Below, piece after piece: positions 12,601 to 61,869 of a stretch of 64,000 nucleotides of DNA. This stretch comes from Labia minor (Eukaryota; Arthropoda; Insecta; Dermaptera; Spongiphoridae): the NCBI GenBank assembly GCA_963082975.1, contig OY720344.1, positions 96,787,228 through 96,851,227 on the forward strand, written 5' to 3'. The first letter of the stretch is position 1; every line of letters begins with the position of its first letter. The position numbers were made by a program, and so were the translations under genes. Below the pieces are notes generated by a model. The model ran no database searches, was not told where the DNA came from, and saw only the letters and a list, made by a program, of their open reading frames with translations.

Positions 12601-15600
12601 TTCGAATTTCTCTTTAAATGTGTGTGATCTTCTTACTACTTATTAATTAATTCATTGATAGCGCCACTAGCGCAAAATTTGGCATAGTGTTGATATTCAT
12701 TTGACATGTTAATTTAAAAATATTTTATTGCAACTTAAAATTTAATAAATATGATCTAATAATATTTAAAATGTTAACTTTTAGAATAAAATGAAATATA
12801 GGTAAAATTAACACTCGGGGGGGGGGGGGGGGGGCAGTTTAACGACTGGAAAGTCAAATTTAGAACAGCGCTATCTATGAACTTACTAAATAAGTAATAA
12901 TTAATAGATATAGATTACACACAATACTAATACCCCAATCTGTTTATAGAATAATAATAACATATCTGGTATTTCCAGAAACTTATTAAACCAAATATAC
13001 TATCTTCAAAATTATACTAATTAAGTTTTATAATATAATTGTTTACATTCATAATTGGTCATTATGTTCAAATGTGATTGCTTATAAATGAGAAAAGTGG
13101 AATAGCAGTTTCTATTTTTATTTTTATTAAACAAAATACCCATTGCTGGTGTATTCACGTCCATAAAAATCAAATATAAAGAAATGAACTGTGTTGGAAT
13201 ATCTTGTTTCAATCAATAAAATACTTGGCAATTATTTTTCATTCTAGTTTTCCATCATAATAAAAATAATATATTATATATTTTCCGATTTAATTTATTT
13301 ATTATTTTATTAAGTCGAAAAAACATTAATAGAAAACGAGGATGTTGTTGTTTTTAATTAATCTTGTATATTTTAAATAATTATTCAATTAAATAGAATA
13401 CTTAATGGATGTTCTTTAAAAGAAACGAGTATTTATTTTTATCGAATGGACTAAATTGCCTAAAATTAAAATGATCTTCTTTTAACTCGATTCTCATAAT
13501 AGTTTATAATTCCGGTTTCGATTTTTTTTTAAACTACTAAGTGCACTCTCTCTTATTTATATTTAGACTCGGGAATAAACATCTTTAGAATATTAAGTAT
13601 AAATAATTTTCATATTGTATATACAGATGATAATTGCTCATTTACCTTAAGTAATTTTTTACAGCTTGATACAAATTGTCCACTGGGTGTGGTCTGACTG
13701 AAAAATTTAACCATTTCCATGACAACACCCTCAGGCCTTAGCAGCTTGATACTAAAATCGAGACCATCGCTCAAGAAAACTTTGGCATAAAGAGCCTCGA
13801 GGATCGAGAGCGAATGCGGCATCGACTCGACGAACAGGTCGATTGGCAGCTCGCAGAGGATCACCTAAAAAGAAGAGTATTACGGCTTAGAAATCCATTG
13901 GTTGTTTTCTTTCTCTTGTTCTACCCCTCCCCCCCCCCCATTTTCATACTTTCGTCATATATTATTTTCAAAAATTAATTTCAATTGAAAAGAGGAACGC
14001 TTCATTGGATAAAATATTTATTTTATTTTTAATAAACAAGAGTTTGAAAATGTGACTTTCTTCTCATATATATACAATATATATAATTTCTGTCGTATGT
14101 ATGTGATGTCTGTAACATTATGAAGTTAGTTACAAATTGTCAAAATTATTAATTAGTAACTAACTTTATTGTATTAAGACTAGAAGCCGCCTGTCCCTCT
14201 AAAAATAAGAAGAGTTTATGTCGCCCGCCGGCAGTATATAATCCAAAACTTAGCAAATTATTTTTTGGTATATGACCCTAAATTTAAGATAAGATCAACA
14301 TCAAACAAATTAATTTATAATTATAAAGCTATTCATATATATATATATATATATATAAATATAATTAGTAAATTAAATTAATTAATCTATGCGCACGGCA
14401 GTGCGCCGGCCAAGTTCCAGCAAGCCGCGCGCATGCCGTAAGTATATTTACACGAATGGTTTGGAGTCACTTTTGACCCCCCTGTATCTCAGTGCCTATT
14501 GCAAGTACAGAGATAAAATTTTATCTACGTAGTCATGTACTAGAACTAAAGCAGGATGCCAAATTTCATAGTTATAGCTTCAGTAGATCCTGAAATATGA
14601 CCCTGTGAAAATGGCTTATTTTGGAACTGATTCACTGATTGGTCAACAAAATTCTTAGGGTATTTCCAATTGTCCTAGCGCTATGAAATTTGGCATACAG
14701 GTCGTGTGTTATAAGTAGGTTAACAAAAAATTATGAAATTTAAGAAATCGGTCAAGCTTGAGTTGTTATAATCGAATATCAATGCGATTTTAACGAATTC
14801 AAACGAATTCATTGGTTTTGTCAGAAACTAATCAAGCTAGGTCTTCGAAATTTGGTACACCGATATTATTCACAGTTTGTAGATTTCTTTTAAAATTTCG
14901 TCAAAATAGGTTAACCGGAAGTGGTACTTTACCTACACTGGTTGCGTTTACCTTTCAAGTAAAGTACCAGTTTGCTTCAAGATATTTGCTTCATATTTTG
15001 TATATAGATTTAAAAATATGAAAAAAATTCAGATACCAAATTTCATCATGATCTGACTACCGGAAGTGACATTTTACCTATACAAGTAGCGTTAGGTGTA
15101 AATTATAAATATATATAATAGTGTTAAACCATTTTACTTTATAATTTAAATTAATTAGTTTGTTTATTTTTATTGTTATAACTTAACAATTTCTATATAT
15201 TTCTATATAATTTTCAATTAATATTAATAGTTCTAATTATTTATTATTCAATACAAGTTGGAAATTCAGAACTATAAAATAAAAGAACAAATAAAATTAT
15301 TATATTTAATATATAAACAAATATAATTTTAATTTAAAAAAATTTGCAATTTTTTTAAACACAAAATTACTTCCAAGGCTAAGAATGGACGCGGGCGCGG
15401 CACAAAAAGGAAAAAATAGGAAGCTTTCTTAAAAAAAAGTATTGAAATCTAATCAAAAACATACCTGTTAAAAAGGGGGCCAAGTTCCTATCGGCTATTT
15501 GTTTGCCTAAAAAAGGGTTCAAATCCATCCCAATGCCAAGTTTAGATGCACTTCAAAATCATTCATAATCATTTTTATCAACAGCCTGATCCACTGGTAA

Positions 15601-18600
15601 ACATTTGGCATTCCAAAGAATCGCCACCACACCCAGTCCTCCGCCTCCTCCATCCAGGCACGCCACTTTATTCACGTCAACGGTCCATCTGGCCGAAATT
15701 CACTTTACCATACACCCAACTTAAAATATGGTATAGTTGTTAAAATACGTAGGTACATGGTTTAAAATATCTACAATTATAATACTTAGAAATTTAAACT
15801 TGGCAGGTTTTCGTACTGTACGTAACACTAGATTAATTGTATAATTATATTTATTATTTAAATATATAATTTAACCTGCTAATTCTAAGTATTAAAATTG
15901 TAGATATTTTAAACCAAGTACCTACGTATTTTAACAACTATACCATATTTTAAGTTGGGTATATGGTAAAGTGAATTTCGGCCAGATGAACCGTTGACGT
16001 GAATAAAGTGGCGTGTAGTGTGCCTGGATGCAGGAGGCGGAGGACTTGGTGTGGGACTGAGTGTTTTGTACAGCACGAAAACCTGCCAAGTTCAAATTTC
16101 TAAGTATTATAATTGTAGATATTTTAAACCATGTACCTACGTATTTTAACAACTATACCATATTTTAAGTTGGGTGTATGGTAAAGTGAATTTCGACCAG
16201 ATGGACCGTTGACGTGAATAAAGTGGCGTGCTTGGATGGAGGAGGCGGAGGACTGGGTGTGGTGGCGATTCTTTGGAATGCCAAATGTTTACCAGTGGAT
16301 CAGGCTGTTGATAAAAATGATTATGAATGATTTTGAAGTGCATCTAAACTTGGCATTGGGATGGATTTGAACCCTTTTTTAGGCAAACAAATAGCCGATA
16401 GGAACTTGGCCCCCTTTTTAACAGGTATGTTTTTGATTAGATAATAATTTACCCAAAAATGAGACCTATACAGATGAATTAATTACCTTAAAAAATTTTT
16501 AATACTAAAATTTCATAAAGATATTGTGAGCCGTTTCCAAAAATAAAAAGACATGCCTAATTAATTAATTAATTATATGTCTCTGCACAATTTTTGGTAT
16601 CATAATAAAATTAAATAAAGTCAGTTTACTATTTTGTTATTCAACCAGAATGATTTATATTTATGTTTATATGGATGTATCATCAGAGAATTTTTTTTAA
16701 TTTAACATAAAAATTAATAATTATAAACCGAGTAACCTATAGTTTTGAACAATTCCTTTATTAACAATTTATAAAATTTCATCGAATAACTATGTGAATT
16801 GACATTGAAATATAGAGGAAAATGACTGACATAAAATAAATAACTTAAATGAAACAAAGATAGAAATTAGATGAAGATAGCTAAAGATAGAAATAGATGA
16901 AAAAATATGGTTATTGTAACAAAGAACTTAAAAAGTTTAGTAGTAGTAGTCATAAAGATAGATAGTTAGAAGATTACATAACTATTATAATAATTATTGA
17001 TTATTATATTAGAAATATATTATCATCATTAATGGTTAAAGGTTGAACAATAAATTTCCAAAAATTTTATACTTATTTGTACAAGAAAGCATTTTTATCA
17101 ATATTATTGATGATTGAAGATATATATATATATATAATAAATTAATAAAATATAATTTATTTACACGTATATTTATTTTTTTATAATTTAATTTATTTTT
17201 CATAAACATATATATATTAAATAGATCAATATTTATTTATATAAATTATAAATTTATTAAATTTGATATACTATATATAATATATATATACATATAGCGA
17301 ATCACTGTGAAAATTTAAACACAAATAATCATTTGAAAATACATTTTAATATTTTTGTTTTAGTCAACTGTAAAATGTAATAAGTTAATCATGATATGTT
17401 ATTGAAAGTTCATTTATGGGAAAAATCATTTTACTTAATGGGTATTTTTAATTAATATAATTAAACAATATGAGACAATAAATATAACTGGCTTTAGAAA
17501 ACACTATCTTAATTATCTTGATTATGATTGATTATAAAACTTTTTAAGGATTGCAACTGAATGGTTTACATCCTTTAAGCTGTTTCGAATTTAGATTTTT
17601 CAGTCACTAATATTGCTCTTAGCCTTTTAAATATATCAATTTATTATATAAATATAAATTTAGATTAAAATAATCAATTTTATTTAATTTAAATTAAATT
17701 ATTAAATTAAATTATGAATTGAGGGCCATGATCAGCAGTATCTTTGTCTTTGCCTATCCTCAAGGGGCGAAATTGAATTCATAAAAGTAGCAATTTGAAA
17801 AATAATGTTTAAACTTCAAAATAATTCAACCAATTATTTATAAATAAATTAAATAAATTATGTATTAGATAATATACATTACTTAGGTTATTGAATAAAC
17901 AGATCTATTAAAAAAGGTTGATTTATAAGAATAATAAGAAATAAATTTATTTTAGTTTTAATTTTTTTTTATTAAATTGAGATAAAGAGATAATTCATTT
18001 TATTCAAAGATTGAGAAGATTGAGTAGGGGAACGATGGAAAAATTAATGAAAAAAAATAATTTATTTATTTAAGAATCTCTCAATTAGATTTAACTATGT
18101 GAATGAAATTAGTAATTGAATAATAAGTTTTATTGAATAATTATATGAATGTCAGCGAAAAATAGCAAATAATCGAAATTTATTATGAATGATTATTAAT
18201 ATAGGTAACGAAAAAATTTCAAGAGAGATGATAAAAAATTTTAATTATAAAATCTAGATTGCTTGAAATTTATATTTAAACCTAAATCCGTTAAAAATTT
18301 AATTTTTCTACAAATAATAAATAAAATCTACTATAATATTTTTTTAATATAGTAAACTATTATCTACATATATCTGTAATTCTTGATCACACCAATCACA
18401 TTTATAATAATGTAATTTATGAATTAATCCTCAATATGCATAGAGCTCATGTGATTCTCTTCTGATTAAGATAATCATTACAAATTACTAATAAATAAAT
18501 AAATAAATCATAAATCATAACTCACACTTTAAATAAGACTAATAATTTAACAATAAAATTTTTTTAATGGAAAAATGAAAGTTACATTTATTTTTAATAA

Positions 18601-21600
18601 TGATTGTAATAAAAAAATATTTTAATTAATCTACCCGTCTATTTTGTTATTAATATAATTAAGGCTATACAGAGACGTGCCCTGCTCAAGAAAAAGGCAA
18701 ACCACCTGTTAAGAATTCTGGACTTGGTCAGATAATTAGCATCCATAACTGGAGAAAGCAAACATGATTTTTTTTAAAAAAAATAAATATGTACTGAATA
18801 TTTTCACTTTTTTTTTAAAGGTATTTCTTAAATATTCAAAGAAATTTTATATTCCTATACATTGGAAATAATTAAAAAGAATTAGTGATAATTAATTATA
18901 ATTTTAAGATATTTCTACAAAAAGAAAAAAACTTGAAGGTTTATCTTTCATACTACATGAAAATGACATTAATTTATATAAAATATCTCTATGTATTTTT
19001 TGTAATTTCTAAAAGAAAAAAAATCTATCTACGGTACATGCATATATATATTATATTGCCGTTTTTCTTTCCATTCCTATTCATACACTTTGCCTGTTAG
19101 TGTCATATGGAAATGAATAGAAAAAAGAAAACAAACAAATAAATCACGTGTGAAATCTAACAGAACGGGACACTCATATAAGAAAGATTGTTAAAGACGA
19201 TTAATAATAAGTGTAAAAGAAACATTTCCTAATTTTTTTTTTTCAATTTTTATATATAAACAATAATAGAGAAGGAAAACTCTTCTCTTTATTACTAATT
19301 AATGTATATCAGGAGTGATAATAATACAATAAATAGTTCAAAGAACTGTTTGAATTTTAAATTTCTTTATCACTAAGAATTCCCAGAACATAAAACTGAA
19401 CTTTGTCTAATTAATATATGAAAAGAAGAAATAGTAATTGTGTCTTGTTTTAAACTATTTGAATATAATTTCCAATTTTTGAATGAATTAAATTGGTACT
19501 GAAATAATTAGTTTTAGATAATCTATCGGCTGTAGTAAATTTATTATTATGATTCTTGGCCATGATCTGACAATAATAAACACACAAATCCCACATGTGA
19601 ACATAAAAAGTCTCCCAATAATTCTTGCAGATATAATAATATAATATAATATAATCTTCAGAGTCCCGGATATACGAGGTTGGTTCAAAAGAAAAGATGA
19701 ATTTTAAATTTTCGCGAGCTGTGTACATTCGATTATCGAAATGTCCTTCGATTATGTTGGTACACATATGTTTCTCATATGTTGACAATATCAGCCATTT
19801 TGGATTAGTAGTTTGTTTATGACAACTGAAAAAGTTAGTAATGTTTTTGGGTGTTCTTCGATTTTTTGCTTAAAAAAATGGATCAAAGAATTTGTATTAA
19901 ATTTTGCGTTAAAAATGGATTAAAGTGCTCGAACGCACTTAAAATGTTGACTGTGGCATTCGGCGAGTCAACTTTGTCTCAAAAAAATGTTTATAAGTGA
20001 TATCAAATGTGAAGGTTTTGCTCACTGTTTTCTTAGATTACAATGATTACAGTGGTGCATCATGAATTCTTGTCAACACGTCGTATTGTTAATAAGGAAT
20101 ACTTCTAGGAAGTTATGCAACGTTTGCGTGAAGCAATACGGTTCAAATGATCTGAATTGTGGAAAAACAAATCATGGATAATGCACCAGCTTATCATCAT
20201 CAATGCTTTTTCGTGATTTTTTGTCCAAAAACAACACCATAATCATGCCTCAACCACTGTATTCACCAGATTTGGCTCCTTGCGACTTTTTCCTAATCCC
20301 AAAACTGAAGAGACCAATGAAAGTAAAGCGTTTTACCACAATTGATGAAATAAAGTTTTAATCGAAGAACGAGCTGATGGCCATACCGAAAAGCGCATTT
20401 CAGAAGTGCTTCGACGATTGTTAGAAGCGCTTGCGTAAGTGCATTATATCTTAGGGCAGAGGTTCTTAAACCTTTGTACTCCGCGGACCCCCACTTGAAA
20501 AAAAAAATTTTTGACGGACCCCATCCCAACTTTAGGTACTTTACGTCATTTTATTAGTTAATTTCTGGCTTACGATCTCATAAGAACAAGGATATATGAT
20601 GGATATTTCTAACAGTGATTGGTGAATAACGATTTTTTTGCATATAGTAGAACACATTTTATTAGAAATTATAATATTGAAGAAAGAAAATTCAGCTAAA
20701 TATGAAGATGGAAACGGTAGCAATAGTTTTCTTGCACATTTCGTTGAATTTGGGTATTTGATCTCTGTTTCCTCACAAAGCCATGCCATCGCTTCTTTTA
20801 TATTAATTAAAGTTTTAACTGACTCATCATTTTCTCGTGCACCTGTACGATGGCTTTGCGGACCCCCAGTAAAGGCTTCGCGGACCCCCAGGGGTCCGCG
20901 GACCACAGTTTAAGAACCTCTGTCTTAGGGGAATTACTTTGAAGGGGACAAAATGGATATTGATGAATAAATAAATACTTTTCGAAACAATTTAAAATTC
21001 ACCTGTTCTTTCATGAAAGTATTCGGTGTTATTTTATTTATTTCTTATAATTAGATTATTGACACCAATAATTTAGCGAAATGAAAATTACTTTCTTTTA
21101 GTCATCGTTTACAAAGAAATTTATATTTTTGTTTAAATATTTCCCTAAAAAAGACACTAAAATATTAATTTCTTACCCTGAAAATATAAATATACAATTA
21201 TAAATAAATAATTAATCATTACAGTTATTGATTGTAAAGGGATTTCCAGAGTACGACAGGTTTAATTAAATTCTTTCTTTTTTTATGAAAAATCTAATTC
21301 AGTTGGGATAATAAATTTCCAAGATCCTAAGTAAATATCGTTAATGTATTATAATTCCTATTTTAATGAAATGTTAATTAAAAGTTTAAATATCATAAAT
21401 TTTTTTAAAATTTATCTAGGTATATAATTTTTTTTTATTTCTGAGTTATTCTAGTAAATTTATTTAACTGTATTTCTTTCTAACTAAATTTCCCTTTGAT
21501 AATAGCGGCCTTTTTTCCAATAAATTTTATATTTTGCGTTTGTTTATATTGAGATATTATAAAAGACTTTTTTTTAATTTCTAATCTTTTCCTTATACCC

Positions 21601-27600: not shown

Positions 27601-30600
27601 TAGCACTACTGAACTCGAATATTTTTAACTAAAACAACCATATTCCCCTAGCAATTTCTACCCTGAACTACCTCCATCCAATTCTTACCCCCTTCACATT
27701 TTTATTTTCCTTATGTCAACTTTTATATTAATTTATTATTATGTTTTCATATATAAACTTATACTTGACTTTGTATATTCCTTTTATTTCATTTATGAGA
27801 CATTGTAATTATGTTATTGTTTTATTTATTTAATTTACTTTTCTAAGTTAATGTGATTCAGGTCTATTTGAGCTTGATTTTGCAATTATTGAGAATTTTA
27901 ATAATTTTTAGTCAGGCTTTTGTATATGTATCTTTCTTATTTTGTTATACTAGCAACATTTGTATATATACGACATGAGTATACATAAATATATATATGT
28001 AAATATATTTGTATTTTCGAAATATTAAACCGCTCAAAGGATTTTTTTCAAATTGACTTATAGATAATTTTCAATAAAGAAAAATCGATCTGTATTGGTT
28101 TCAGCCTCGGGAAAAATCATCTTTATTAGTTTTTAGGAAAATTAAATGTCGTCAGCAACTACATCAGACAACGCATCCTTAAATATAAAATATTATAAAT
28201 CTAAATAAAATCAAATTACGAAATATATATTATGTTATATCTATCTTTCATTGCATTAATACGTACGTTTAAGGGGTGTATGTGTTTTATGACTATTTTT
28301 TTTTAATTTATATTCTTTTAAATTATTTTAGAGGCGGCTCGGTGAACCAGGTATTAATATTACCAACCTAACTCGATAATAAGGAATAATTTTTTTTAAT
28401 GACCGAGCGGCAGAAGTTTTATATATAAATTTGTGATAAATCAGTTAATTTTATAATTTGATAACATTTGATTTAATCTAAATTTGGATGGATTCTTCTT
28501 CTCATTCATTTTCATAATTCAAGGTCTGAGAAATTTAATTTGATTTCTTTCTCTCCCTCACATGAATACAAAACCAACCTTGGCCTTAGTAACTACACAT
28601 CTCTCTCTCCAAGTAAGATTATTTACTAATAACATGAATTAATTTTTAGGAAAATGGTAGCTTACTTTAAACGTTCCGTGACTAAGTCGATTGATGAAAT
28701 TGGCTGCCTCCCTGTATTGATAATTCTCATAAAGTAGAAGTATGCGTTTCACGGCATAACGTGGACTGACATCGGCAATGGTCATCGATCCCGCCATTGG
28801 GTCTGATGCTGGAAACCCATTGACCCAATGCGAGGAACGCCACTGCATTCTTTGGACATTGTTCCGGCGACCACGTTCAGGACGTATCCGATCAAAACGT
28901 TCAATCAGTGGATCGACAAGAGACTGAAAATAAATAAATATTAACAAATTAACAAAGAATAACAAAAATAAAGTTTTTTTTTTTATGTTTAATTCAACAG
29001 GATCTGAGTCCATTTTAGTATAAGTACCGAACCAATCCTAAGTTCTGCACTGAATTACAGAGCGCTTCAAATGAATATTAAAAAATATTCCTCCCCGGCG
29101 GGGAATCGAACCCCGGTCTCCCGCGTGACAGGCGGGGATACTGACCACTATACTACCGAGGAAATGATTAAATTTAAACATTTATTTTTTGGAGGTTTAT
29201 TATATTTATCAAAATTATTTTTTTACATTTTATTATCAGTATTTGCTTATTCTTTTAATTAATTTTATATTATTAGATCATATCTATTCAATATTTAATT
29301 TAATTTAATTACTATTTTAAATGACTATCAAAGAAATATTGTTTGATAAAATTATCTTATTTCTAAAGTATAAATCTTAATAATAATATTAATATTAAAT
29401 ATAATTTTTGAGTAATTGTTGATTTTCATGTTTACCTATTATTAATTACTTTAATTAAGAAAATAAACAATTAAAATAGTTTTTCAGATAAATATCAGAT
29501 AAACAGATTGATTCTTCAATTCAAAAAACCCTTAATATGTAAATTTCTTAAAAATTCAGTAAATAATTTTCAAGACCTGAATATAGTTACAATATTTGCT
29601 ATTATAATAAGATTAGATAGATTTCAATTAATTTCAGTCATAAATATACATTATCGTTACATTGAACTCTTTTAATCGAGAATAATACATTATAAAAAGT
29701 GAAATCTTTGAATTAGTAACTTTTAAGAAAGATGATGATGTGAAAAAATATATAATTGAAAATAATAGAAAAACAATTGAGGTTTCATTGTTTTTAATGC
29801 TTAAACTTATTCTCTCTAGACGAATATTAAAATGTTTTTGTATTTCCTTCAAAATATAATCTTTTAACTTCAATAATTAACCCAACAAACCCAACTATAT
29901 TTTAATTTACATCTTTTATATAAAATTTATATGTTACTATAATATACTATTGTTTACGAAAAAAGATATTTAAAAACTCTTGCATAAAGTTTTTTTCTAA
30001 TTTTAATTTATTTTCAACTTCCGATCTTAGAAACTTTTTAGGCTTATCAATAGCAAGAATTAAAAACATAGAATATCAAAAAAATCAAGCAGTTTGTTGT
30101 AAACAAAATTAGAAAATATAGATTTCTAATACTTACTATTAATTACTTATCACTTGAAATCATTTTCTTTTCTTGAGAAAACAATTCCAAGTATAATAAA
30201 TTATAATTCATATTTTACTTTTCACATTTACTTTTAAATGTTCCAAGGTGGACCTGTTGTACACCTTGGGACAAGATACAAATCTACTAATTGTTTTTTT
30301 TTAATTTGACTATAATGGATATGATATTAAAAATTATTTTATAATGTAGAAAAAGGTTGCAAGAATATTAGGTAATATTTTGACAATAATGCATAAATAT
30401 AAACACTTAGAAAATAAGGATATAAAAAAGTGTCCCAGAATGAACCACGCATAAATAAAAAAAGCTGAACGATAAAATGTCCCGAATGATAATTATAATT
30501 ATAATAAAGTAGTAGGTGAATTCTCGGAGTGAAATTTAAATTTCGATTCTGATTTATAATAGAATGTAATACTAAAATATTTATCAAATAAAAAATTACA

Positions 30601-52210: not shown

Positions 52211-52698
52211 TAGGGTCCGCCATCTAACATTTTTTTTAAATGCAATAAAACAATGGATGAATTTTCAAATTTATTTTTTCATAGTGAAGTATAGACCTTG
52301 CGATTATTTATGAAATACTATTTCATTCAAATGGCTGCCTCGGCTGGCCTTGCAGTACCGCCAGACCAAAATCCGCACCAAACCGTCACTCTCTGAGGAT
52401 GCATTGTCTTCTCCATGATAACGTGTGGGTTTTCCGTCCCCCAGATGCGGCAATTTTGTTTGTTGAAGTATCCGCCAATATGGAAATGCGCCTTATCCGA
52501 AAAGATGATTTTTTGGCCAAAATCGGCGTCTCCTTCAATGCCGTATTGCAAGGCCAGCCGAGGCAGCCATTTGAATGAAATAGTATTTCATAAATAATCG
52601 GAAGGTCTATAGTTCACTATGAAAAATAAATTTGAAAATTCATCCAACCATTTTTGTTTTATTGCATTTTAAAAAAAAATGTTACATGGCGGACCCTG
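52211..52698 (-). mobile_element. Tc1/mariner-like MITE with long inverted repeats
   Basis: Near-identical inverted arms of about 150 bp (52211-52360 and 52548-52698) start with TA-flanked agggtccgccat. Between them about 190 bases on the minus strand read IIFSDKAHFHIGGYFNKQNC and HPQRVTVWCGFWSGG, a Tc1/Tc3-type transposase core with the second catalytic Asp (FSD). The rest of the transposase is absent. The arms contain part of the reading frame duplicated at both ends. Confidence 0.88.
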
Positions 52699-53300: not shown

Positions 53301-53429
53301 CTAATACATATCGATTTAACAAAATTACGTTTCTACAAATAAACTAAACCGTTAACCGATTAATTAATTTAATTAAGTATGCAAGAATATCATTTATTTA
53401 TTCTTTCCAAATAAAGTTCTGTAATTTTT

Positions 53430-54442
53430 ACCGACCGACGATAGTAAGGGAGGTATTGTTTTCACACCAAATTTCACATGTGGAGATTTTTACATATCTC
53501 CACGAATCATGCATTTTCTTAACAGAAAAAAGTATTTTTAGCATGATGTCTGTCCGTCCGTCCGTATAGATGTGTACAGCCTGAACGGCTCAACCGATTT
53601 TGATGAAATTTGGTATATTTACTTAATGCATCAGTGGGATGAATTGATCAACTTTTGGTGCAAATCCGGAAACCGGAAGTGGTCCGTCCGTCCGTCCGTA
53701 TAGATGTGTACAGCCTGAACGGCTCAACCGATTTTGATGAAATTTGGTATATTTACTTAATGCATCAGTGGGATGAATTGATCAACTTTTGGTGCAAATC
53801 CGGAAACCGGAAGTGGTAGTATTAGCGATCGACGATAGGAAGGGAAGGGTTATTTTCACACCAAATTTCACATGAGGAGATTTTTTTATATATCACCACG
53901 AATCATGCATTTTCTTAACAGAAAAAAGTATTTTTAGCATGATGTCTGTCCGTGCGTCCGTCCGTCCTTCCGTCTGTCCGTATAAATGTGTACAGCCTGA
54001 ACGGCTCAACCGATTTTGATGAAATTTGGTATCTTTACTTAATGCATCAGTGGGATGAATTGATCAACTTTTGGTACAAATCCGGAAACCGGAAGTGGTA
54101 GTATTAGCGATCGACGATAAGAAGGGAAGGGTTATTTTCGCACCAAATTTCACATAAGGAGATTTTTTTACATATCACCACGAATGTATTGGTTTTATCC
54201 TCGGGAAAAATCATCTTCATTATGTTTTTCTTAATTTAAAATTATATGACGTCACCCAGCCCTTCATGACGTCACAGCCTCGGGTAACGCCGGCTACTTC
54301 AGCTATATATTATAAATAAAAAAAAATTAAAAATATTTATGTTTTATCCATATCTGTTTTTTATTACATTAATAGATATATTAAAATTATTTGAAATTGT
54401 TTCTATAGCTGGAAATTAATTTACTTCAAACCGTCGGTCGGT
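53430..54442. mobile_element. Repeat family E, copy 1 (long form with internal tandem units)
   Basis: The ends ACCGACCGACG and CGTCGGTCGGT are 11-bp inverted repeats. Inside are ttcacaccaaatttcacatg, a tccgtccgtccgta run and caaccgattttgatgaaatt, then a right part with tatgacgtca and atgacgtcacagcc. A 134-bp unit is exactly repeated at 53549-53682 and 53683-53816, and a further, more diverged unit follows. It is a non-autonomous DNA element of unclear superfamily. Confidence 0.75.
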
Positions 54443-55047
54443 TCGGACCTGGCCACAGGTCAACTTATTTATAAATTAATTTCAATTTAATATATTTTTT
54501 TATTTCCTTTTTGAATGGGGATCTTGATTTTTAAATTTTCTATATTAATTTTGACATATAATAAATTTATTTATTTATTCAATATTTCTCTTATTTAATT
54601 TGAAATGAAATTGTTTGAATTAATATTGAACTTTGTATTTTGGGTATTTTTTTTTATTAAAAATGAAAGTAATGTGATGCACACTCATACATGTTTATTT
54701 ATAAAATAAATCTAATACTATGAATAAATAAAATATTATAATTTTGTTTGTATGATTGTAAAAAGAAAATGAACAAACTAATAAAAAAACAAACAAAACA
54801 AACACTTTCCAAAATAAATATAAATATTTGTCTTTCTCTTTCAAGATGTTGACTGGAATATTAACGAATGAAAAGTTCACCTGCCTAAAATATAAAACAA
54901 ATAGATTAGAGTTATTCTCTATAAAATTTATTCTTATTAAATAATGACGAGGCTCATTAAAACAAAAAACAAAAAATTATTTCTAAAAAGAATGGGTTAC
55001 ATCTTTTAAACTTCAATTTAATTTTTTTTTTTTTGGAATTGTTATTT

Positions 55048-55634
55048 GCCGACCGATGATAGTAAGGGAGGTATTGTTTTCACACCAAATTTCACATGTG
55101 GAGATTTTTACATATCTCCACGAATCAAGCATTTTCTTAACAGAAAAAAGTAATTTTAGCATGATGTCTGTCCGTTCGTCCGTATATATTTGTACAGCTT
55201 GAACGGCTCAACGGATTTTGATGAAATTTGGTATATTTACTTAATGCATCAGTATGATAGATTGATCAACTTTTGGTGCAAATCCGGAAACCGGAAGTGG
55301 TAGTATTAGCGATCGACGATAGGAAGGGAAGGGTTATTTTCACACCAAATTTCACATGAGGAGATTTTTTACATATCACCACGAATCATGCACTTTGTAT
55401 TGGTTTTATCCTCAAGAACAATAATCTTTATTCGTTTTTTCTTAATTTAAAATTATATGATGTCATCTAGCCATTAATGACGCCACAGCCTGGTCTTACA
55501 TATATATTATAAATAAAATAAAATTAAAAATATTTATGTTCTATCCTATCTGTTTTTTATTACATTAATAGATATCTTAATATTATTTGAAATTGTTTCT
55601 GTAGCTGGAAATTAATTTACTTCATCGTCGGTTC
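55048..55634. mobile_element. Repeat family E, copy 2
   Basis: Same block order as copy 1 but with a single tccgt...ccggaagtgg unit. The ends are slightly decayed (gccgaccgatg, cgtcggttcgg). Confidence 0.72.
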
Positions 55635-56111
55635 GGACCTTATTACAGGTCAACTTATTTTTTTAAGAACCAAATGGAAAAAATTTAGAAAAAAATGGAC
55701 TAGATTTATGAATTAATTTGCATATATAAAAAATTATTTTGGAAATAGTTCCACCAACTGAAAAATATACTGGAACCAAAGAAGGTTGAGATATATAAAA
55801 TGTTAATTGGATATATAACTAATGTATTACTTACTAAATTTTTTTAAGAATTAAAATAGAAATTCATACTAGAAAAGAATTGTTTAACTTAATTTGCTAA
55901 GAACACGGCAAAGAAAAGCATAACTCATCAATATCTTCGAAATGACATGTAGACTTTACTATACCGTAACCCAACCAAGATAAGAACAATTCTTACCATT
56001 TACCCTCTTTTTTATGAAATATATTTACATTAAATTAAAATTATATCATATTCGGCAAACATTTTTAATTTTAAATTGAACCATTTACATTAATACGCCA
56101 CCTTGTTTTTT

Positions 56112-58459: not shown

Positions 58460-59369
58460 AGGTTGCCCCGAATGTCGCGATTTCATTTCGAAATCCAAAA
58501 AATCAAAGGCACTCTCAGCTGATTCAAAGAGACTACATAACAAACGCCTTATTTTTTTAATCTTTTTTTTAAGGCAAACTTTCTTTATTATTACTTTTTC
58601 TAAATTTCTGAAGGCGAGGCTTGGAAGGGCTAATTTATGGGGAAAGGAGGAGGCCCTATTAAATATTCAATTGTTTTTTTATAATTTAATTAATAATAAA
58701 AAAACAATTGAATATCGCGATTATTTTCTTTAACTTTTTATTTTCATTTTGAAATATACAATTTCATAATTTAAACTTTGATATATTTTAAATATTTTAC
58801 TAAATAGGTAGAATTAATTATTATTAAAATTTCTCAATTTAAAATTAAAATGCAAACATCACAAAAAAAAATCATATATATTGTAAAAATATAACTCTTT
58901 TTCTTTATTATTTCTTTTTAACTTATCAAATATAAAAATATTTTATTTTTTTTATTATGGAAATTATTTCATATAAATATAAATATATTGTAATCGAATA
59001 TATCTATACTCAATAATAATTTAATATTTATAAATTATCAAATTTTTTTTTATCATTGTACTGATAAATCATATTTGGAAAGAAATAAAATATAGTTAAG
59101 CTTATTTTAAAAATTAACTTAATGTATAATGCGGTACATCTTATTTTAAATGAATAAATAAAATTAGATCTCCTAAATTTTTTTTTAATTTTGATAGATC
59201 AAATATTCTTATTCTTTAGCTGACTTACAAATCCCATACCATCATTTTGCTTATTCTTATGTGTATTCTGTCCCAGTGTCCCCGCAAAAATTCTCCGGGA
59301 GATAAAAATGTCTCGGTTTACATAAAAAATAATATCATCCGTGAATAAAAACAATATTATTCAATTTTT
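58460..59369. other. AT-rich intergenic stretch
   Basis: A less AT-rich start (58460-58640) is followed by an inverted pair, attcaattgttttttta and aaaaaacaattgaat, near 58662-58712 that could form a hairpin. 59268-59325 has words (cccagtgtccccgc) like the short inverted-repeat element at 33455-33660. Confidence 0.4.
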
Positions 59370-59613
59370 ACCGACCGACGATAGTAAGGGATGTATTGTT
59401 TTCACACCAAATTTCACATGTGGAGATTTTTACACATCACCCTTCCCTTCATGACGTCACAGCCAGCTACTACTTATATATTATAAATATAATAAAATTA
59501 AAAATATTTATGTTATATCCATATCTGTTTGTTATTGCATTAATAGATACATTTAAATTATTTGAAATTGTTTCTGTAGCTGGAAATTAATTTACTTCAA
59601 ACCGTCGGTCGGT
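59370..59613. mobile_element. Repeat family E, copy 3 (short form, 244 bp)
   Basis: The ends accgaccgacg and cgtcggtcggt are intact. The tccgt/accgattttgatg centre is deleted, leaving about 70 bases of the left part joined to the atgacgtcacagcc right part. This defines both termini of the family. Confidence 0.8.
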
Positions 59614-59751
59614 TCGGACTTATTTTTGTTTTAATTAGTAGCTCACGGAATAAATTATATAAAATTTGATCTTAAAAGGCCTCTAGGCAAGGGTTTGAGG
59701 TCTAAGTATGATTTTAAATATAATATTACTATATGTATCTATCACTGTGTA

Positions 59752-60274: not shown

Positions 60275-60685
60275 GAAATTAATAGTGATAAGAAAATATA
60301 TTTATTAACAAAATCTTAATATACAAAATGTAGAATTTGAATATGTAGAAGGATAATAATATTTGAGAAAATTTAAATCGAGGTAGAAATCGGGAAACGC
60401 CTGTTATAAATGCAGTAAAGAGGGTTATCTCATCAAAATTATTATCAAAGGAATCAAAATTAAAATATATAAACCAATTATTTTGCCTTTTCTATTATAT
60501 GGGTGGGACGCATGGTCTATGACCCTGGGAGATGAGAGTAGATTCAGAGTATTCTTTCCAGCATTTATTGACCAAAGAAAGATGAGGTCACCGGGGAATG
60601 GCGGAGACTGCATAACGAGGAATTGCATGACCTCTATGCATCTTCAGAAATAGTTAGGGTTATAAAAGCGAAAAAGCTAAAGAAA
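60275..60685 (+). mobile_element. LINE fragment, copy 9
   Basis: Plus-strand frames give a decayed YLLTK, YKCSKEGYLIKIIIKGIKIK, GWDAWSMTLGDESRF and RPKKDEVTGEWRRLHNEELH-like sequence, then DLYASSEIVRVIKAKKL. It passes directly from YLG-like sequence to the RKFKSR region and therefore lacks the 64-base segment of copies 5 and 6. It ends abruptly at a mariner. Confidence 0.8.
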
Positions 60686-61492
60686 GTAATCCCCCTCAGA
60701 ACAATACACTTATGCCAATCCTCAAAGCACCTCTCATAAGCACTTTTTGGTTTAGCCTTGAGCTCTTCCAGTGATGCAGTCTTTATCTCCTCAATCGTTT
60801 CAAATCTCCTTTCATAGGTCTCTTTAGTTTTAGTTATGACCCTTTTGAGTAAATCTGGGTCCTTATTGACGTCATTCAACAGCTCTTGAGCGATGCTCAT
60901 GCGACGGTTCTTGTGGTCAAAATTTAGCAATTTTGGAACAAACTTCGCTGACACACGTCTCATGCCCAAAACGTTAGAAAAAATTTCATGGCACGAGTCA
61001 AGCGATATACCGACATCCTCAGCAACTTCTCTGATAGTAATTCGACGATTTTCAAAAACAATTTTCTTCACTGCTTGAACGTTTTCATCAGTTGTTGACG
61101 TTCTTGTGTCTCCAGAGCGAGGCTCGTCATTGGCATCTTCCCGGCCATCTTGGAGGAGTTCGTACCACTTGTAAACATTTTTATTACTCAGAACAGTTTC
61201 ACCGTATGCCACTGTCAACATTTCAAGTGTTTCGGAGCACTTTATTTTATTTTTTACACAAAATTTGATGCAAATCCTTTGATCCATATTTTTCGATAGC
61301 AAAAAATCGTCGAGCACGCAATACACTTATAACCTTTACGCCTCTCACAACCAAACAAAAAATGCTATACACTTGAAACTTGGTACAGATGTTCGGGAAG
61401 AGTGTACCAACATAGCAAAACAAAAAAATCGATAATCGAAAGTACGTTGCCCGCGAAATTTGAGTCACCTTACTTTTCGAACACACCTCGTA
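60686..61492 (-). mobile_element. Mariner with internal deletion
   Basis: The frame starts MDQRICIKFCVKNKIKCSET (Met at 61287) and runs through the mariner helix-turn-helix region (NVYKWYELLQDGREDANDEP, DVGISLDSCHEIFSNVLGMR) to DLLKRVIT. It then jumps to ETYERRFETIEEIKTASLEE and CFEDWHKCIVLRG, the C-terminus. The whole catalytic core (GDEsW through the final Asp) is missing, so it cannot encode active transposase. The 5' terminus tacgaggtgtgttcgaaaag at 61492 is next to TA; the 3' terminus is absent. It matches the family at 19673. Confidence 0.9.
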
Positions 61493-61823: not shown

Positions 61824-61869
61824 ACCGACCAACGATAGGAAGGGAAGGTATTGTTTTCACACCAAATTT
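61824..61869. repeat. Repeat family E, left-end fragment
   Basis: accgaccaacgataggaagg and ttcacaccaaat match the left end of family E and stop after about 45 bases. Confidence 0.6.

Follow-up and report, generated by a model that had tools for sequence, protein, structure and literature searches.

A palindrome of about one kilobase within an intron raises the question whether it is a small-RNA locus of its host or part of something else. Such a foldback occupies positions 15447..16442 of the stretch analysed here, 64,000 nucleotides of the dermapteran insect Labia minor (assembly GCA_963082975.1, contig OY720344.1, positions 96,787,228 to 96,851,227; G+C 26%), referred to below as the window. 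Seen alone, it resembled a candidate small-RNA gene, and a preliminary description, made from the letters of the window, treated it as a free-standing unit with no transposon-type ends that would feed Dicer-dependent small RNAs. Comparison with the remainder of the genome revealed instead a mobile family that has carried a long hairpin to hundreds of places, the foldback being half of a 2-kb element with defined ends. With moderate confidence, we consider it to form the 5' half of a DNA transposon, non-autonomous and active in recent times, whose closest resemblance is to the rolling-circle (Helitron-like) elements.

The foldback as half of a dispersed element

Self-comparison of the window recovered the foldback at exactly the coordinates given previously, together with the copy in its loop. 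It consists of two inverted arms (15447-15829 and 16060-16442) spaced 230 nt apart, which show 98.4% identity across 383 nt when one is inverted, and whose outermost 210 nt match exactly; the arms are thus as alike and as oriented as first described, while being longer than the 350 bp or so then assigned to them. In each of 20 randomised windows (order-1 Markov), exact inverted repeats reached at most 17–24 nt. The partial third copy (15883-16054) has the direction of the right arm, as had been stated, and is inverted relative to the left; it is 96% identical to the right arm over 133 nt in one comparison and 91% over 172 nt in another.

The genome (604 Mb, one assembly) was searched for the foldback and the best 40 of 650 candidates were scored, which yielded at least 40 foldbacks at 98.7–100% identity, the one in the window included; in a second search the best 40 of 2388 candidates were scored. 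The genome copies are homologous from approximately 14385 to 16442, and their flanks outside this span are unrelated. One border coincides with the outer end of an arm, next to which the DNA differs, whereas on the other side nearly all copies run into shared sequence: the second arm is internal and is followed by a further 1.06 kb (approximately) of the element. Among the 39 other copies of the first search, 37 match at least 280 bp of this half beyond the foldback. The remaining two (L016 and L038) had suggested that the foldback is mobile by itself, a notion that was abandoned because both carry the rest of the element farther away, interrupted by other DNA; at L016, 14385-14765 and 15435 onward are the only portions of the element that were found. 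Each of the 40 copies therefore has some or all of this second half.

Both borders are sharply defined. At the foldback end the sequence ATCTAATC / A|TCTAATC is the same in 38 of 40 copies, the others (L021 and L036) differing by a few bases, while at the hairpin end ATAGA|T stands in all 19 loci compared, which represent 16 different places. Across these 19 loci the element measures 2,041–2,058 bp in 17 and approximately 1,840 bp in two (L050 and L051). Exact hairpin (3') ends were found 371 times in the genome and exact internal junctions 317 times, the reversed-pattern control returning 0 in either case. Of the 82 junctions listed for contig C1, 55 are accompanied by an exact hairpin end at 900–1200 bp and 64 by one within 4 kb. 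No place in the genome was found where the hairpin end is preceded by a base other than G.

The sampled copies are young. Among 25 full-length copies (of 32 offered), the median distance from the majority sequence was 0.59% (range 0.39–1.46%, to which L066 is to be added at 7.7%), and over the first 100 alignment columns of the hairpin end the same set departed from the majority by 0.04%. Since the samples were picked by closeness, the family may include older members.

Insertion is exact: the target is AT, and no duplication beyond these two bases accompanies it. Both borders show AT at all 19 loci, and one copy (L005) occupies a repeat whose empty copies, at L038, L071 and L079 and in the window near 53440 and 55058, have AT once; further empty copies lie near 59381 (one base different) and near 61836 (more divergent). 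As the AT of the empty site is single, insertion either separated A from T or duplicated the 2-bp AT. The target is also biased on one side. Of 64 distinct flanks at the foldback end, 42 have TAC among the first 13 nt outside, while the two stretches that follow score 8 and 9; the distance of the motif from that end is mostly 6 (22 cases) or 7 nt (9); as a baseline, 12.9% of the 13-mers that follow AT in the window contain TAC. A second sample of 25 flanks gave counts of 15 outside the end and of 6 and 4 in the following stretches. Inspection by eye of 16 copies disclosed no comparable target motif at the hairpin end. Inside the element, GTATTGAA stands just before the internal arm and is similar in look to the target motif. 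Such a one-sided motif, along with the mixed features of the ends discussed below, makes the identity of the enzyme a testable question.

Two further repeats are of note as regards insertion. The unoccupied target of L005 is a tandemly repeated, dispersed family (GGGAGGTATTGTTTTCACACC...) at 53425-55660 and 59365-59620 of the window, which is also present at L005, L038, L071 and L079. The copies L004, L016, L027 and L046, judged by their foldback-end flanks, all occupy one position of a different repeat (GGTAATATTA|AT), which may be a hot spot of insertion.

Table 1. Features of the mobile element and of its host gene in the window
Feature	Positions	Strand	Basis or remark
Whole mobile element, 2,058 bp	14385..16442	-	Foldback terminus read as 5' end; border AT shared with target
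Terminal hairpin (stem 6 bp, loop 4 nt), at 5 nt from the A|T cut	14391..14406	-	Predicted fold; 371 exact genome copies
11-bp subterminal inverted repeat, hairpin end	14408..14418	+	Partner at 16401-16411
GTATTGAA adjoining the internal arm, inside the element	15439..15446	+	Resembles target motif (by eye); 317 exact junction copies, control 0
Internal (left) foldback arm	15447..15829	.	98.4% inverted match to 16060-16442
Outer domain A of left arm	15447..15626	+	One per arm; second copy 16263-16442
Inner domain B of left arm	15627..15829	+
AT-rich loop spacer	15830..15882	.	11% G+C
Third, partial B copy	15883..16054	-	Tandem with right-arm B, step of approximately 215 bp
Terminal (right) foldback arm	16060..16442	.	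Outer end is the element terminus
Right-arm B copy	16060..16262	-
11-bp subterminal inverted repeat, foldback end	16401..16411	-	Repeated at 15478-15488 in internal arm
Host-gene coding exon downstream of element	13646..13864	-	Splice signals; MIEAP match of spliced protein
Host-gene coding exon upstream of element	28666..28923	-	Splice signals; MIEAP match

Variable repeats, inverted loops and concerted arms

The arrangement of the foldback was typed in 66 copies. The one present in the window, with B once on the left and twice on the right, was observed in 45, and an inverted loop in 11; the loop of the divergent copy L066 is likewise inverted. Five copies were scored as having one B per side; as the middle copy of one of these (L069) is broken, the clean one-copy forms number four. 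L075 is the single copy with a right side of three B; L065, L068 and L076 have lost parts, and for L059 no foldback end was found within the stretch examined. The right arm therefore holds between one and three B copies, which follow one another at a step of approximately 215 bp. An inverted loop is the outcome that would be expected of recombination between inverted arms. On a tree built without the affected columns the inversion requires five changes, and a single origin was not rejected (p-AU 0.096, approximately unbiased test); an earlier tree that placed the inverted copies in one clade, suggestive of a single event, was discarded as circular, having made use of the inner arms.

Palindromes are a known assembly problem and a single assembly was examined, so that the foldback might be a false palindrome created during assembly or within a read, a point which the preliminary description had asked to be checked. 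The typed copies render this scarcely credible: the same foldback unit stands at many sites with independent flanks, both outer arm domains being present in 64 of the 66 copies and the flanks being nearly all different (64 distinct), while the arms differ from each other and variants with one or three repeats exist. Two copies 11 kb apart (L029 and L030, on G000:C9) have an identical foldback-end flank and may represent one insertion, probably through a duplication that carried the element.

An outer domain, variable tandem inner repeats of approximately 215 bp and a middle loop also match the published architecture of foldback transposons (PMC4079207, PMC3573991), in which the arms serve as terminal inverted repeats. 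Tetris of Drosophila virilis has, in each arm, an outer domain and tandem repeats of approximately 220 bp in variable number, around a non-coding middle (PMC4079207), and one subfamily of Galileo has tandem repeats of approximately 210 bp in its arms, left and right numbers being unequal (PMC3573991). The variable number of tandem repeats by which foldback transposons are recognised was indeed found here, with one, two or three B in the right arm. Both arms of Tetris are terminal, however, and its target duplications measure 8–10 bp (PMC4079207), while Galileo has 7-bp duplications and a P-type transposase (PMC3573991, PMC2775673). In the present element one arm only is terminal, at least part of the 1.06 kb beyond the other being present in all 40 copies of the first search, and no target duplication of 7–10 bp was found, the ends of the whole element showing AT alone. 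Membership of a Tetris, Galileo or Mutator-like group is contradicted by these data and we rate it as extremely unlikely. A free-standing miniature inverted-repeat transposable element (MITE) or foldback transposon was rejected likewise, as the second arm is internal and no convincing target duplication adjoins the foldback's own ends, where the only candidates were 2-bp words, palindromic TTAA/GGCC within the arms, an 8-mer with two mismatches within the arms and an off-register CAAAAA.

Within a copy, the arms tend to change together and, on the favoured reading, are corrected against one another. Both outer arms were obtained from 62 of 65 copies offered; among changes from the family majority, 59 cells were common to both arms of a copy, as opposed to 16 in the left arm only and 7 in the right arm only, from which it follows that the arms evolve in concert. 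Independent coincidence would account for approximately 0.13 shared cells. The distinct variants number 51: 34 are found in both arms of at least one copy, the other 17 in single arms only, and among variants confined to one copy 19 are in both of its arms and 17 in one. The arms differ by 0.18% within a copy, versus 1.06% between copies, and none of 5000 permutations gave a value as low. Within the window itself, the comparison of the middle, right and left copies (private sites: M 9, R 2, L 0) fits arm correction, although this sample is too small to show it.

Concerted arms would be produced either by conversion between them after insertion or by copying from a folded strand during transposition; assembly polishing may also have made the arms of each copy alike. 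A partial precedent is provided by Galileo, where a table of four copies contains two whose arms are far more alike than copies are to one another (0.0018 and 0.0071) and two whose arms are approximately 6% apart, inversions in that element being attributed to ectopic recombination (PMC2775673).

A bolder and improbable proposal would make of the foldback functional machinery: the 5' end has an inverted internal counterpart beside a built-in, target-like GTATTGAA, and in the course of transposition the displaced single strand would fold so that one arm is re-copied from the other and an error-free, proofreading terminus results. The element would then exemplify a class not yet described. Many young copies with changes in one or both arms provide a countable system for the study of inverted-repeat correction.

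Affinity of the element and its candidate enzyme

In the orientation of the Helitron-like reading (minus strand), A|TCTAATC at the outer end of the right arm comes first; that arm, the loop and the internal arm follow, then approximately 1 kb of other sequence, the small hairpin and the end ATAGA|T. Insertion is precise at AT, usually with GTA (in minus-strand reading) 6–7 nt outside the foldback end; the number of inner repeats rises and falls, and some copies have a flipped loop. On this reading the element would be mobilised by a rolling-circle mechanism, the foldback would have arisen by inverted copying of the element's 5' end into its interior, and the arms would be corrected by gene conversion or with a folded single strand as template. 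Hairpin RNA made from the intron, if any, would be a by-product.

Canonical Helitrons insert between A and T, start with TC and end in CTRR, a palindrome of 16–20 nt lying approximately 11 nt from this 3' end; DINE-1 and the HINE elements of mites are marked by subterminal repeats and a palindrome on the 3' side, and their target is TT or T-rich (PMC4067079, PMC5148889). The present element starts with TC after the target A in 38 of 40 copies and was inserted at A|T with no target duplication beyond a possible 2 bp of AT, as observed at one target repeat with several empty copies. It resembles the described non-autonomous Helitrons, HINE and DINE-1 in that no coding capacity was found, in having no long target duplication, a hairpin at one end, subterminal inverted repeats, internal tandem repeats and a high copy number, and shares A|T insertion with canonical Helitrons; it differs from them in the lack of CTRR, a hairpin nearer the end, the absence of a TT target and the 1-kb 5' foldback.

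Several observations weigh against this reading. The 3' end is ATAGA|T and not the canonical CTRR, and the 16-nt palindrome stands 5 nt from it, versus approximately 11 nt in canonical Helitrons; the fold of this hairpin was, moreover, equalled by 33 and 38 of 200 shuffles of this GC-rich stretch. The 11-bp subterminal repeats, at 31 and 24 nt from the borders used in that comparison, do not fit the spacing published for mite HINE (2–4 nt from the 5' end and 38–60 nt from the 3' end; PMC4067079, PMC5148889), and in place of the TT or T-rich target of Helentrons and HINE there is AT, usually with TAC 6–7 nt outside. Insertion at A|T is itself indistinguishable from a 2-bp AT duplication made by a cut-and-paste enzyme. 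No Rep/helicase gene was found with the element's ends, most Rep families not having been read to their ends and other transposase families not having been searched; contig C1 has 22 Rep places and 89 exact ends, and no two of them lie closer together than 99 kb; one member of a Rep family encoding 1,652 aa had none of the element's ends in the stretches examined, where AT-rich matches alone were returned; and a frame of 2,039 aa is followed, approximately 3.5 kb downstream of its Rep domain, by a hairpin with CTAG|T, which its motif suggests to be the terminus of that element and which is an end of canonical type unlike the one described here. Since TC, A|T insertion and the hairpin are shared while CTRR and the HINE spacing are not, the element is Helitron-type in look, and membership of neither group is claimed.

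The transposase search covered the Helitron_like_N domain, for which the genome contains 104 matches, several of them in long open frames; this abundance speaks for the Helitron-like reading. At G000:C5:46739897-46792979, Helitron Rep fragments recur at steps of approximately 5.7 and 9.8 kb in what appears to be a local tandem array.

The same ends might belong to a DNA transposon of the cut-and-paste kind: insertion would duplicate the 2-bp target AT, the terminal repeats (TCTA) would be very short and accompanied by binding sites in subterminal position, and one end would have gained a foldback. In its favour, AT is found on both sides of every one of the 19 loci and once in the empty site, and both termini start with ATCTA and have the 11-bp subterminal inverted repeat in common. 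Terminal repeats of approximately 5 bp would be very short, however, and the target motif is present on one side only, and we regard this alternative as possible, albeit unlikely.

Searches for the element elsewhere, with four patterns against viral contigs and one against a collection of genome contigs, gave no match, both collections being non-eukaryotic, and a literature search, which did not extend to eukaryote repeat libraries, found no description of it.

The host intron, the hairpin and neighbouring features

The host gene runs on the minus strand. Its coding exons 28666-28923 and 13646-13864, joined by ordinary splice signals, enclose the foldback, and its spliced product matches the Pfam family MIEAP ('mitochondria-eating protein'; E 4.2e-15). 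Since it lies between coding exons, the claim that it is intronic, albeit not the number given to the intron, is supported. Expression of the gene would entail transcription of the hairpin as part of the intron. The predicted RNA fold of the 996-nt foldback has an energy of -740 kcal/mol, compared to a mean of -237 kcal/mol for 20 shuffles, and bears out the expectation of a long hairpin upon transcription, with a near-perfect stem of 383 bp; this stem falls in the size range of fly transgenes for RNA interference (331–570 bp; PMC4710571).

A long, near-perfect inverted repeat in an intron might accordingly be a hairpin RNA (hpRNA) locus that the host keeps for silencing, the hairpin being diced into small interfering RNAs (siRNAs). 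The hpRNA loci of Drosophila are alike in having a long inverted repeat within a transcription unit; some have arms derived from transposable elements and one has a local tandem copy of an arm (PMC10317233). They differ in being recognised by Dicer-2-dependent siRNAs of 21 nt that come from both arms (PMC10317233), while the structure described here is a dispersed repeat. Because the foldback recurs at hundreds of places, with the borders of a mobile element, it is a trait of the family and not a property of this locus, and, being a family trait spread by transposition, it gives no indication of function at the locus; the likeness of its arms is explicable without selection for pairing. The 120 arm matches listed all fall at the 40 scored element copies, weaker matches to genes not having been sought. 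That the host keeps the hairpin as an hpRNA locus is highly unlikely. As the family carries a long hairpin, here into an intron, such hairpins can spread by transposition; what makes the system interesting is less this particular intron than the concerted evolution of the arms, the target motif on one side and the question of the enzyme.

In keeping with the absence of coding content reported at first, five peptides of the arms matched 0 Pfam families. The notion that the arm is a protein relic was dropped, since 30 element peptides gave a best E value of 0.13 against the masked window and no Pfam match. A B-box-like word in the arm was also considered as part of a tRNA-like sequence; this was rejected, as ARAGORN placed no tRNA there and Rfam gave no match at gathering score. 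At a lax threshold the arm produced chance-like Rfam matches only (MIR7502, 40.7 bits for a gathering score of 71, E 0.004).

Further features were observed in the window. A tRNA-Asp(GTC) gene at 29090-29163 (minus strand) adjoins the upstream host exon, and an intron of the host gene contains a run of 18 G at 12817-12834, unusual for so AT-rich a window. A decayed mariner-type transposase (HTH_48 match) is present at 60634-61326, to which an inverted stretch at 19669-20002 is 69.5% similar. A second, ordinary foldback at 52212-52697, with arms of approximately 165 nt that are 90% alike, ends AGGGTCCGCC and TATA flanks, is presumably a Tc1/mariner-type MITE.

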